Virus record (IMG/VR): IMGVR_UViG_3300045999_008996
Location: 158,564-222,563 of that record
DNA length: 64,000 nucleotides
DNA from: a virus
Direction: 5' to 3' (one strand)
Below are positions 47,895-52,250 of this stretch, in pieces. Every line of letters starts with the position of its first letter. Positions within the stretch are counted from its first letter, which is position 1. The notes under the pieces were generated by a model. That model did not search any database. It was not told the origin of the DNA and was given only the letters and a program-made list of their open reading frames with translations. Made by a program: the position numbers and the translations under genes.

Positions 47895-48332
47895 TTATTC
47901 GGTTTCCTGACCCTTTCCCTTCTTACCAATATTATACTTCTGCTCCAAAATCCAATCACCCTTGTCCTTATATGCGAGGACTTTAATTTGATTAAGTGGG
48001 GCAATGTCAGAAACTGAATCCTCTTTTACAACAGTAATCAGTCCCCAGTCAGCAAGAAGGCGGGCAATGCGATTACGTCTCTGAACATCATTCACCGTAA
48101 GGTTAGCGTGTTTACCGTCTAGAGCAAACAGTTCCTTAAAGTGAACAATGTAATATCTACCTTGCTTATGCAAAATATGGCAAGATTGATAGAGTTTTTT
48201 CTCCTTTCTTGATGCAACTCCGATGCGTGTCAAAGTCTCACGAACTTTCAAAAAGTCATCTGGTTCATTAAGAATGACCTCCACCATTTGGTCTTGAGAC
48301 CAATTTACTGTAGGTTCTACCGTAGTAGTCAT
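47895..48332 (-). CDS. regA: RegA translational repressor
   Basis: 145 residues. The match to T4 RegA is direct: EVILNEPDDFLKVRETLTRI, LYQSCHILHKQGRYYIVHFK and RRNRIARLLADWGLI. It binds start regions of early mRNAs and lowers their translation. N- and C-terminal tails are longer than in T4 (122 aa). It overlaps gp62 by four bases. Confidence 0.95.
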   Translation of the reverse strand: MTTTVEPTVNWSQDQMVEVILNEPDDFLKVRETLTRIGVASRKEKKLYQSCHILHKQGRYYIVHFKELFALDGKHANLTVNDVQRRNRIARLLADWGLITVVKEDSVSDIAPLNQIKVLAYKDKGDWILEQKYNIGKKGKGQETE

Positions 48333-48712
48333 TTTGATCCTCCAATATCAAGTCGTTTTTTAATAAAGTTAATTTGTTCTTTTGTCAGGATTTTCAGTGC
48401 TTGGGATGCTTTCTCATTACTATAACCATAGTATGATTTAACACACTCTAAGTCTGTAACCTTATCCTTTCGGAGCCAGGGAGAAAATCTCTTCTTTTTC
48501 CTTAGACTATTTAGATAAAACAAATATTGCATATCTTTATCAAGTTGATGGTGCATATTCATTTCATTTGCAAAAAGAATGCAATCAATATGACCTGATA
48601 AACATCTATTGATAACAAAAGGTGCATATTCCTTAATACAATATTCATCCTCTTGAATTAAATTTTCTTTCGTAAAATTTATCGAGTTTAACCAATCTTT
48701 AAGTTCCATCAT
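48329..48712 (-). CDS. 62: Clamp loader small subunit (T4 gp62)
   Basis: 127 residues. Helical protein with KDWLNSINFTKENL at the start and SLRKKKRFSPWLRK in the middle. Assigned mostly from position between RegA and the clamp-loader genes, the known order 44-62-regA. It is shorter than T4 gp62 (187 aa). It loads clamp gp45 together with gp44. Confidence 0.8.
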   Translation of the reverse strand: MMELKDWLNSINFTKENLIQEDEYCIKEYAPFVINRCLSGHIDCILFANEMNMHHQLDKDMQYLFYLNSLRKKKRFSPWLRKDKVTDLECVKSYYGYSNEKASQALKILTKEQINFIKKRLDIGGSK

Positions 48713-49830
48713 CTGATAATTTTAATTTCCTCATCATCTGTCCAGAGTTCAACCTTTGTTCTGAATCTATTTTCTTCTTTTAGTTTTTCGTATCTCTTTG
48801 TTGCTTTCTTCTTCCACCAAGAGATAATATTTTCCAAATAAAATTTATCCCAGTTCTGACCACGAACTAGTTCTTTTTGCTCCCCAAGAATTACTTCACG
48901 AACATTGGAGTATCCATATTCAGAAATGTAAAATCTCTTCTTTTGAGTAAGATTAAATGCAGAATTGATGACAGTATTAAACTCATCAAGTTTTTGTTTG
49001 TCTTGGAGTGAGTTTTTAATTATGGAGATCATTTTAGTCTGTCGCTTCATCTTTTTTGATGATGCCTTATTATCGGTCAAAGGAGTATTATTGTTCAGAT
49101 AAGTAAACCTATCGTGCAATCTGTGAAACACATCATCGTGAAGAAGAGGTAAGAACTTACTCTCAGTCAAACCTTTATATCGCATAAAAGGTTTTAGACC
49201 ATCATATTGAGATGCGTCTGTAGTTGAACCATAAAGAGAAGTTGTTTCAAAAAGAGCAATGTCTTTTTCAAAAACTTTGTTAAGTGTTTCTCTTGCATAA
49301 TGAGAGCAACAAAGTAGTGCCAAAAGTTTACCACCAAGGTAATTATATCCAAATGGTTGTGACGGAACAATCACGAAACCCATAGCTGCGTGACGATTAA
49401 AGATAGAAAGATTAGGGGGTTTACCTAACCACTCATTTCTTGGTTTTGAATTAATAGTTGGAGAACCAAATCGAATAAATCCAATTACCTTACTAGTATT
49501 CCTTTCAAAAACCATCCAACGGAGTTCTCTACCAGGAATATTTGATTCATTGTTATGAGAAGACACAACTCTCAAAAGAGTGTTGTAGTGTTCTTGAGGT
49601 AGTGCTTGCTGGAAACGATCACCAACAAACTTAATATCAAACTCCATATCTTCTGGATGAATATCTTCATTAAAGAACTCATCGTGCAATGGAGCAAGTG
49701 TATTAGAACTCTTGATTACTTCTTTCTTCACAAAACGCAAATAATCTTCAATATTTCCCATCTGAGAAAAATACTTAATAAATTCATCTGCTGCCCATTG
49801 AGCGTCTTGTTCTGAAATAATCATCATCAA
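48709..49830 (-). CDS. DUF4338/DruA-like protein, 373 aa
   Basis: RELRWMVFERNTSKVIGFIR, then LSIFNRHAAMGFVIVPSQPF, LGGKLLALLCCSHYARETL and FETTSLYGSTTDASQYDGL follow the order of the DUF4338 family, which includes DruA of the Druantia defence system. The function of that domain is not known to me. It lies inside the clamp-loader operon, overlapping both neighbours, so it is expressed early with replication genes. The assignment is tentative. Confidence 0.55.
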   Translation of the reverse strand: MMMIISEQDAQWAADEFIKYFSQMGNIEDYLRFVKKEVIKSSNTLAPLHDEFFNEDIHPEDMEFDIKFVGDRFQQALPQEHYNTLLRVVSSHNNESNIPGRELRWMVFERNTSKVIGFIRFGSPTINSKPRNEWLGKPPNLSIFNRHAAMGFVIVPSQPFGYNYLGGKLLALLCCSHYARETLNKVFEKDIALFETTSLYGSTTDASQYDGLKPFMRYKGLTESKFLPLLHDDVFHRLHDRFTYLNNNTPLTDNKASSKKMKRQTKMISIIKNSLQDKQKLDEFNTVINSAFNLTQKKRFYISEYGYSNVREVILGEQKELVRGQNWDKFYLENIISWWKKKATKRYEKLKEENRFRTKVELWTDDEEIKIIR

Positions 49831-50114
49831 ACAATTAACTTTTTAGATGGTTTTTGAATTACCGAAAACATTTGTTCATATTGTTCCACAATTTGTTCTT
49901 GCGTATCGGCAACATACACTACATAACTTGTTTTGACCTTAATTTCCTCATTCTTATCTTTCAAAAGTGGAGACCAAGGAGCAAATCCAAGTTGTCCATT
50001 ACCGGAAGGAATAGCAACAATTGGATTAGTAATAACAATAAAAGCATCAGCATCCTCAATAAGGTCTGCAATGACATCTTCACCAGACCACATACGAATT
50101 AGTTTTACATTCAT
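49827..50114 (-). CDS. Small beta-barrel-like protein, 95 aa (paralogue B)
   Basis: MNVKLIRMWSGEDVIADLIE, VITNPIVAIP, LGFAPWSPLL, then a Val/Tyr strand and an IVEQYEQMF helix. Block order and key words (GE(E/D)-(V/I)xA, NPI, PW) match 59987-60382 and, more weakly, 46754-47005. A strong AAGGAG lies before the ATG. Located between gp44 and the DUF4338-like gene. Confidence 0.7.
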   Translation of the reverse strand: MNVKLIRMWSGEDVIADLIEDADAFIVITNPIVAIPSGNGQLGFAPWSPLLKDKNEEIKVKTSYVVYVADTQEQIVEQYEQMFSVIQKPSKKLIV

Positions 50115-50125
50115 TTTTTTCTCCT

Positions 50126-51070
50126 TTATTTAAATTCACACTCACACATAATTTCAGTTAGTGCTGCTAAGAGATTAATTTCTTGGTCAGCCACGAACGC
50201 ACATTGGTATTGATACTTAGCAATAACAAGAACGGCAGCAGGGATAGACTGGGGTGAAAGACAATCAAAAGTGGCGTCATAAATCCTGCGAAGTAGACTA
50301 GAAGCATCGTTGTCCAGGTTGGAGACCACCCACTTACGAACCTCTGTAAAGTTCTTGTCTTTGAGGTTTTTGATAAGTTCATTTACAGAGATGTCTGAGA
50401 AAGATGCAAGAATGCCCGAGTCAATTTTTCCTCCTGTAGAGTATCTTTGGCATTCGTTGAGAACCCTACGAAAATCTGGGAAGTGCTTTGTAACAAGTTC
50501 CGCAACGACTTTTTGATCATATTCAATTTTTTCCGAATCCAAAATTGATTGAAGTCGTTGAAAGAAACTACCTGCAAGTTGAACTCTTTGCTTCCCTTTG
50601 ATGGTGAAGTCGATGACGGCACATCGGGAGTGAAGAGGTTCAATAATCTTGTTTTTGTAGTTGCAGGTGAAGATGAATCGGCAGTTGTTATAAAATGCCT
50701 CAATATTCGCCCGTAGTAGGAGTTGTACATCATTACCGGTATTGTCTGCTTCGTCAATGATGATGACTTTATGTTTAGAAGATCCCGTAAGTGAGACGGT
50801 CGAAGCGAAGTTCTTTGCTTGGTTTCGTACAGTATCCAAGAAACGCCCTTCGTCGGATCCATTGATGACATAATAATCTGCTCCCAATTCATTGCACAAT
50901 GCTTTTGCGATTGTAGTTTTACCAATACCAGGAGGTCCTGCAAGAAGAAGATTCGGAATCTCTCCCTTCTCAACAAACTCCTTAAATGTTTTTTTAGTTT
51001 CATCAGGAAGAATACAGTCATCAATTACTTGAGGCCTGTACTTTTCCACAAAAAGAAATTCACTTGTCAT
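50126..51070 (-). CDS. 44: Clamp loader large subunit, AAA+ ATPase (T4 gp44)
   Basis: 314 residues. VEKYRPQVIDDCILPDE at the start, Walker A AGPPGIGKTTIAKAL at about 44, Walker B VIIIDEADNT, and an SRC sensor region (EPLHSRCAVIDF). It opens sliding clamp gp45 and places it on primed DNA. The ATG at 51070 is used. Confidence 0.95.
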   Translation of the reverse strand: MTSEFLFVEKYRPQVIDDCILPDETKKTFKEFVEKGEIPNLLLAGPPGIGKTTIAKALCNELGADYYVINGSDEGRFLDTVRNQAKNFASTVSLTGSSKHKVIIIDEADNTGNDVQLLLRANIEAFYNNCRFIFTCNYKNKIIEPLHSRCAVIDFTIKGKQRVQLAGSFFQRLQSILDSEKIEYDQKVVAELVTKHFPDFRRVLNECQRYSTGGKIDSGILASFSDISVNELIKNLKDKNFTEVRKWVVSNLDNDASSLLRRIYDATFDCLSPQSIPAAVLVIAKYQYQCAFVADQEINLLAALTEIMCECEFK

Positions 51071-51072
51071 AA

Positions 51073-51585
51073 TCAAATCCAATCGGGTTTTCTTTCGGGC
51101 ATACGAAGATAGTTATCGGAAACCCAAGGTTTGGATGCGATGTATCTTTTGTATGCTTCAAATGTGTCAATAGTGTCGTCAAACTTCCATTCCTCAGGCA
51201 TAGCACGAGCAAATGGTGTCACCTCTGTAATTTTGCCCTTTGGAAACAAGTAATATGCATCCACAAGAGTTTTATAACAGGAGTGAGTTTTATTATACCG
51301 CAGGTAGTATTCATCAGACAAGTTCAATCCCCATTTGATTAACCAGTAGGCATTATGGATACTTTCCATTGCCCACTTGGTGCAGGGATGATTGCGGAAT
51401 GCTCCTTTCTCGGTCTTGTAGGGGGTTCCATCTGCCTTGGGAAGGGTTCCATACCCATACCCCCACTTCTGCGATGCCACGATAGAGAGCATCTGACAGC
51501 ACTCCAGGGGCATCTTAACGATGTGTTTATCGGGGAGGCACACCGCACTCTCGGCAGGCCAAGGAGAGGTAACAAAGATGTTCAT
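51073..51585 (-). CDS. Pyrimidine-dimer glycosylase-like protein (Pyr_excise type)
   Basis: 170 residues. MNIFVTSPWPAESAVCLPDK then HIVKMPLECCQMLSIVA, HPCTKWAMES and EYYLRYNKTHSCYK match a family of phage and bacterial proteins placed with pyrimidine-dimer DNA glycosylase / endonuclease V. The catalytic residues of T4 endonuclease V are not obvious, so repair activity is not certain. It lies between gp44 and gp45. Confidence 0.55.
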   Translation of the reverse strand: MNIFVTSPWPAESAVCLPDKHIVKMPLECCQMLSIVASQKWGYGYGTLPKADGTPYKTEKGAFRNHPCTKWAMESIHNAYWLIKWGLNLSDEYYLRYNKTHSCYKTLVDAYYLFPKGKITEVTPFARAMPEEWKFDDTIDTFEAYKRYIASKPWVSDNYLRMPERKPDWI

Positions 51586-52250
51586 CAACCAAAAGTAGAA
51601 TCAGGTTCCAGAGCAATATAGTAAGTCACATCAAACCCAGTATTTTTAAAGCGTGACAAAAGTTTAGAAGAAATTACTACCTCATAAGAACCAGGAATAA
51701 TCTTGATGTTCTCCACCTTAAAGTTGAAAGTAAATACTTCATCGGTTTCACCAACAACAACAGAGAAGTCATTAGATGTATCGTTCTTCTTATCACGAAC
51801 AACCAATTTCACCACACCTGCTTCACCAACCACAGACAAGTCAGGAAGTTGATACACAGCAGCAGCTTTAAGGAGTTTATCAAGTTCCTTGGTATCAAGA
51901 ATGAAACAAACATCTTCAGAAGGAAGTGAAATAGATTTGTCCGGAGGGGTAACAATTACATTAGGATCTGCAAAGAAATATTTTGAGCGAGAACGACCTT
52001 CTTTGATTACAACATAACCATCGTTTTGGAAATCAAGTTCAGCGTTCTGATGAAGGTTAAGACCATTCAAGAACTGGTTCAAATCATAGATACCAAAATC
52101 CTTAGGAAGTTCTTCTTCAATTGTTGCTTCTGCCAATATATTTTTCATAACGCTAATTGTCCGCAAAGAACTACCTTCTTTAAACAAGATTGACTGATTA
52201 ATAGAAGAGAAGTTTTTGAGAAGCGTAAGAGTTTTATCAGAGAGTTTCAT
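51585..52250 (-). CDS. 45: Sliding clamp (T4 gp45)
   Basis: 221 residues, near T4 gp45 (228). KLSDKTLTLLKNFSSINQSI at the start and FKNTGFDVTYYIALEPDSTF at the end match the family. It forms a trimeric ring that tethers gp43 and also activates late transcription with gp55 and gp33 in T4. Confidence 0.95.
   Translation of the reverse strand: MKLSDKTLTLLKNFSSINQSILFKEGSSLRTISVMKNILAEATIEEELPKDFGIYDLNQFLNGLNLHQNAELDFQNDGYVVIKEGRSRSKYFFADPNVIVTPPDKSISLPSEDVCFILDTKELDKLLKAAAVYQLPDLSVVGEAGVVKLVVRDKKNDTSNDFSVVVGETDEVFTFNFKVENIKIIPGSYEVVISSKLLSRFKNTGFDVTYYIALEPDSTFG

Follow-up and report, generated by a model that had tools for sequence, protein, structure and literature searches.

The 64,000-nucleotide stretch of viral DNA analyzed here (the window) belongs to a virus record of 222,563 bases and carries a DruA-like (DUF4338) gene at positions 48709 to 49830 on the minus strand. 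The gene is listed with a TTG start and 373 amino acids; judging from the sequence, translation probably does not begin there, and an ATG at 49827 or 49824 is likelier. On one side lie gp45 (51585 to 52250; identified by Pfam and PHROG), a pyrimidine-dimer DNA glycosylase gene that belongs to this operon and separates gp45 from gp44 (51073 to 51588; Pfam), the clamp-loader ATPase gene gp44 (50126 to 51082, minus strand; phrog_168 and PF21328), and a small phrog_527 gene (49827 to 50114, minus strand; PHROG). On the other are the clamp-loader subunit gene gp62 (48329 to 48712, minus strand; PF16790 and phrog_225) and the gene for the translational repressor RegA (47895 to 48332, minus strand; PF01818). 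The stop and start codons of the DruA-like gene overlap both of its neighbors, at 49827 to 49830 and 48709 to 48712. Its location inside the clamp-loader operon, as given in the original prediction, was thus upheld by the Pfam and PHROG assignments of gp45, gp44, gp62, and regA. The interval between gp44 and gp62 (48713 to 50125, minus strand), hereafter the slot, also contains the phrog_527 gene, and in relatives it holds a D12 N6-adenine methyltransferase gene. No druB, druC, druD, or druE was present beside the DruA-like gene, where the neighbors are gp45, the glycosylase gene, gp44, the phrog_527 gene, gp62, and regA. Membership in a Druantia type I operon was ruled out, as the DruE helicase and DruB to DruD are missing among these neighbors.

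Assignment to the DUF4338/DruA family, also part of the original prediction, was confirmed by two profile analyses. PF14236 (DruA, DUF4338) matched the 373-amino-acid protein with 39.7 bits (E value, 4.3e−10; curated cutoff, 27) across residues 62 to 199, corresponding to positions 49234 to 49647 on the minus strand, and a profile-profile comparison of the phage family with eight bacterial DUF4338/DruA proteins gave a probability of 98.9 (E value, 1e−17; 242 columns). The phage alignment used for profile and structure work consisted of the window protein and 42 of 324 relatives, picked at 85% identity (43 rows). PHROG_19197, a family of unknown function, matched residues 3 to 373 with 550.6 bits, and the only NCBIfam match fell far below the cutoff of that model. 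A sequence search of the PDB found no match at E values up to 10, tblastn against plasmids found none at E values up to 0.1, and blastn of the gene against E. coli genomes found none. A DruA-like fold in six Synechococcus phages has already been published using Phold (PMC12774648), with a TM score of 0.73 between the S-PRM1 relative and DruA. The S-PRM1 gene (NC_055761) is 53% identical to that of the window and occupies the same slot; the available excerpts of PMC12774648 list its product as a defense-database match and mention neither the operon nor an exchange with a methylase. Comparison with six relatives, hand-picked from contigs L001 to L080, gave dN/dS values of 0.03 to 0.065 (dS exceeded 1 in four of the six, for which the ratios are rough), and the gene is therefore under purifying selection and maintained.

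Using tblastn, the DruA-like gene was identified in 31 of 50,697 records in a phage collection, and in 30 the match covered 80% or more of its length. These were named as phages of Synechococcus (n = 25) or Pelagibacter (n = 3), as "Marine" (n = 2), or as Cyanophage (n = 1). A gp44 of the same type (E value, ≤1e−50) was found in 599 records, 461 of which were named Synechococcus, Cyanophage, or Prochlorococcus. The DruA-like gene is therefore a minority trait among named phages. In IMG/VR it is frequent, with at least 600 matches. Fifteen annotated named carriers were selected from the 31 records, and in 12 of these the gene lies between gp44 and gp62. It follows gp43 in Pelagibacter phage HTVC008M and lies near gp47 and gp46 in S-B68, and Mosig carries a divergent copy near 2OG-Fe(II) oxygenase genes. 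HTVC008M has two DruA-family genes (L438:5117-6259 and L083:5004-6128). Annotations among the carriers are mostly hypothetical or "putative cytoplasmic protein"; S-SCSM2R has "methylcarbamoylase mom" and S-CREM1 has "iron-binding protein," a label for which a term search of the S-CREM1 paper returned no explanation.

To describe slot content without selecting on it, 160 IMG/VR loci were fetched by gp44 alone, and the 40 that were incomplete were left out. Among the 120 complete gp44-gp62 intervals, 95 held a D12 N6-adenine DNA methyltransferase gene, 18 held the DruA-like gene, 7 held neither, and none held both. Because the methyltransferase genes run into the beginning of gp62, slot membership was decided by gene midpoint. 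The D12 genes were sought with a profile of four slot copies (E value, 1e−5), which distant members could escape. The DPPY motif was kept in 94 of the 95 slot methyltransferases. Restricting the count to loci fetched with the gp44 of the window (n = 62) gave the methyltransferase in 37, the DruA-like gene in 18, neither in 7, and again both in none. A further 240 loci were fetched via the DruA-like gene (three types), four of them also among the 160 above; no D12 methyltransferase was detected on any of these loci, 166 of which had a complete slot. The original prediction described the gene as fixed among essential early replication genes. With 31 records against 599 for gp44 and 18 of 120 intervals, its distribution is instead sporadic, and since it also alternates with an adenine methyltransferase, it is not fixed.

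The boundaries of the exchange were located by comparing the window with S-RIM8, S-SSM2, P-HM2, and S-SSM4, of which S-RIM8 and S-SSM2 were chosen after the methylase was noticed in their gp44 row and the other two were not. All four carry a D12 methyltransferase gene (PF02086) between gp44 and gp62, and none has the DruA-like gene. The two proteins share the slot but belong to unrelated families, the D12 enzyme being a methyltransferase with a DPPY motif and no acyltransferase fold. In all four comparisons, nucleotide identity (74 to 92% in aligned blocks) ended at 50125 to 50128, where gp44 stops, and resumed at 48712, where gp62 begins. On a tree of gp44 with 137 rows (the 120 loci, 16 named phages, and the window), the DruA-like label had to change 19 times, at least six of them on well-supported branches; the tree was quickly built, with 53 of its 125 inner branches open. 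In independent pairs, the methyltransferase never changed in parallel with the DruA-like gene and changed in the opposite way in four to six of six, and a kinship-aware test of exclusion, for which these six pairs are few, returned a median p of 0.0625. Across whole genomes, 14 of 16 carriers (the 15 named phages plus the record of the window) had no D12 methyltransferase, while the window's record and S-SCSM2R had one elsewhere in the genome. The copy in the window's own record lies outside the window (G000:C1:60974-61717), and its Pfam score of 209 bits, much higher than the approximately 100 bits of the slot type, indicates another subfamily. Overall, the DruA-like gene has been repeatedly exchanged with a D12 adenine methyltransferase gene at one site. 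No account of this exchange was found among the open-license papers listed in literature searches.

AlphaFold2, run on the 43-row alignment, returned a model with a pLDDT of 89.6 and a pTM of 0.86. The leading Foldseek matches in the PDB were GNATs, all weak (best E value, 3.2e−3; none at ≤0.001). VIA-align gave Z scores of up to 9.9 for the model, with values of 9 to 10 to many GNATs. Mom of phage Mu (8bv8) ranked 16th (Z, 9.6; rmsd, 3.8; 172 residues; 13% identity); its alignment was the longest among the 50 VIA-align matches listed, and its Z score was tied with those of other GNATs, many of which act on proteins or small molecules. From these structural matches, the predicted GNAT-like region spans about residues 59 to 329 (positions 48844 to 49656, minus strand), and the protein is predicted to have a GNAT acyltransferase fold. 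GNATs bind acyl-CoA through the motif [RQ]xxGx[GA]. The candidate stretch in the phage family, Q158-P-F-G161-Y-N163, ends in N, and its Q and G are present in 43 of 43 sequences and its final N in 42. About 20 residues, including those around the predicted active site, are invariant in these 43 diverse relatives. DUF4338 has already been called a GNAT domain (PMC10853773), and Mom has been placed in the GNAT superfamily (PMC7824862). Among viral models (BFVD), the best five matches were giant-virus and phage proteins without a telling name, followed by a GNAT, and a phage Mom ranked seventh (E value, 8e−3). Giant-virus proteins among the best of these structural matches came from Faunusvirus (E value, 2.7e−15), Yasminevirus, and Dasosvirus, and the DruA-like family may thus reach viruses of eukaryotes.

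Bacterial DUF4338 proteins could be divided into two groups by motif and PADLOC score. The first has L(G/C)GKLVA.L and TT...SSxYNR and scored 272 to 652 bits with the PADLOC DruA model in four of four proteins tested; the second, which scored at most 23 bits, has LAS.xLAL, ETFVD, and GTxYRAANWxxxG or motifs close to these. The phage protein resembles the first group, with LGGKLLALL and TTSLYGST..SQYDGL, so that the PADLOC-recognized bacterial proteins and the phage protein both have L(G/C)GK(L/V)xAL and TT...SxY. By profile it belongs to the same family as DruA of type I Druantia (PF14236; PADLOC PDLC00002). It differs from that protein in lacking druB to druE as neighbors, in its weak scores with the two PADLOC DruA models (23.2 and 14.6 bits), and in having a conserved QPFGYN stretch and a C-terminal part of its own.

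Mom of phage Mu is an acyl-CoA-dependent modifier of DNA adenine. The Pfam Mom profile, PF25680, did not match the DruA-like protein at E values up to 10, and hhalign found no match when the phage family was set against seven Mom proteins (probability, 0.8). Calling the protein a Mom was therefore rejected. The second DUF4338 group (ten sequences, three of them near-copies) aligned with Mom over 161 columns (probability, 94; E value, 1.2e−7), with ETFVE..GTCYRAANW set against SFAD..GVVYQASNF, and with the phage family (probability, 93; E value, 2.5e−7), both E values being those of single comparisons. PF25680 also scored 18.8 bits (cutoff, 27.1) on one protein of this group, inside the DruA stretch. 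These alignments provide evidence for a distant kinship of DUF4338 and Mom, with the phage protein linked to Mom through the second group and through its predicted GNAT fold. Among the open-license papers listed in literature searches, none was found that treats DUF4338 together with Mom. The kinship does not amount to evidence for the chemistry of Mom in the phage protein: S124 and D149 of Mom appear not to be kept, as, aligned transitively via the second DUF4338 group, they fall on G167 and at about S198/L199. The title of 8bv8 describes the S124A mutant as inactive. The invariant residues of Mom are H58, Y59, and D149, and the 43-row phage alignment has no invariant HY pair.

Taken together, the acyltransferase fold, the kinship of DruA, DUF4338, and Mom, the position in a replication operon, and the repeated exchange with a methylase argue for DNA modification. 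We judge it slightly better than an even bet (roughly 55%) that the DruA-like protein is a phage DNA-base-modifying acyltransferase standing in for adenine methylation. In such a scheme, the GNAT-fold enzyme of the DruA family would modify bases of the phage's own DNA, possibly by chemistry like that of Mu Mom, an acyl-CoA-dependent change of adenine. The modification would replace the N6-adenine methylation of close relatives, encoded at the same site of the clamp-loader operon. Being made together with the replication proteins, the enzyme could mark new phage DNA, which host nucleases would then ignore. We infer DNA as the substrate, acyl-CoA as the group donor, and protection as the benefit. 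The original prediction had offered three ideas for a phage homologue (a decoy, an anti-defense factor, or an original function of the domain in DNA metabolism). The last of these fits best and is taken here, more narrowly, as DNA modification; an anti-defense effect could follow indirectly, through marked DNA escaping a nuclease. If correct, this reading would give DruA a function and abundant marine viruses a DNA modification, and it would explain the presence of such genes among replication genes.

It is less likely, though worth weighing, that the acyltransferase acts on a protein, be it host RNA polymerase, some nuclease, or a part of the replication machinery, and that its sharing of a site with a methylase is coincidental. 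The predicted fold is generic to GNATs, and many GNATs have proteins or small molecules as substrates. According to PMC7824862, host RNA polymerase is acetylated by Rac, a GNAT of phage origin, and Mom was not matched directly by profile. The exchange with the methylase and the bridge between DUF4338 and Mom point instead to DNA, as does a fusion of a ParB_N domain (27.7 bits; cutoff, 26.3) to a DruA domain on a marine proteobacterial contig (L355:1154-2911) whose neighboring frames look chromosomal by eye. In phage Appa, a ParB-like gene directly adjoins Mom, and this arrangement and the fusion both agree with the DNA-modification reading. On another contig, a gene lying some 3.5 kb away from a DruA-like one (L349:12514-13581) matched MT-A70 weakly (20.8 bits; cutoff, 23.9), and its start has a ParB-like look.

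A somewhat more doubtful proposal is that the gp44-gp62 gap is a cargo site usually holding one larger gene, so that the two enzymes would exclude each other through shared recombination borders and not through overlapping jobs. The borders are indeed precise and shared, and the slot also takes a PD-(D/E)XK nuclease gene, which in one locus fills it in place of either modification enzyme (L598:5448-6068), an endonuclease VII-like gene in S-8S53, and a 2OG-Fe(II) oxygenase gene in HTVC008M (L083:917-1477). S-T4, S-RIM8, and S-SSM4 likewise have 2OG-Fe(II) oxygenases in the vicinity of the slot. The slot is, however, not restricted to a single gene, as methyltransferase-holding gaps reach about 3 kb and small genes were present beside the methyltransferase in 64 of 95 cases and beside the DruA-like gene in 7 of 18; the small-gene model combines two small families that are not related to each other, and all it establishes is that a slot may contain more than a single gene. 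Against a neutral cargo site, 113 of the 120 slots hold one of just two enzymes, and Mosig, HTVC008M, and S-B68, which carry the DruA-like gene elsewhere, are also without a D12 methyltransferase, though three genomes are few. Counterdefense against Druantia, with the protein as a DruA decoy or a dominant-negative subunit spoiling the host complex, is improbable: its resemblance to the DUF4338 group recognized by the PADLOC DruA model would suit such a role, but the residues invariant in 43 relatives, the predicted active site included, suggest an enzyme over a decoy, a decoy offers no reason for the methylase exchange, and nothing was found in support of the decoy of the original prediction.

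Returning to DNA modification as the preferred reading, an extension to the whole family can be put forward only tentatively. PMC7251935 lists DruA of Druantia as a protein of unknown function. DUF4338/DruA proteins might be distant relatives of Mom that modify DNA bases in an acyl-CoA-dependent way; the cyanophage member would make a new bulky adenine mark, repeatedly replacing N6-methylation in the clamp-loader operon, and the DruA of type I Druantia would mark self DNA. DUF4338 domains were also found fused in frame to DDE_Tnp_1_assoc in four loci, three from genome G257 (L411, L419, and L424) and one from G242 (L429), the last of which also includes a DDE transposase. The unit in G257 is about 1.9 kb and is present in three chromosomal copies that are 98 to 99.7% identical; the DruA/Mom-like domain is thus carried by an insertion sequence as well.
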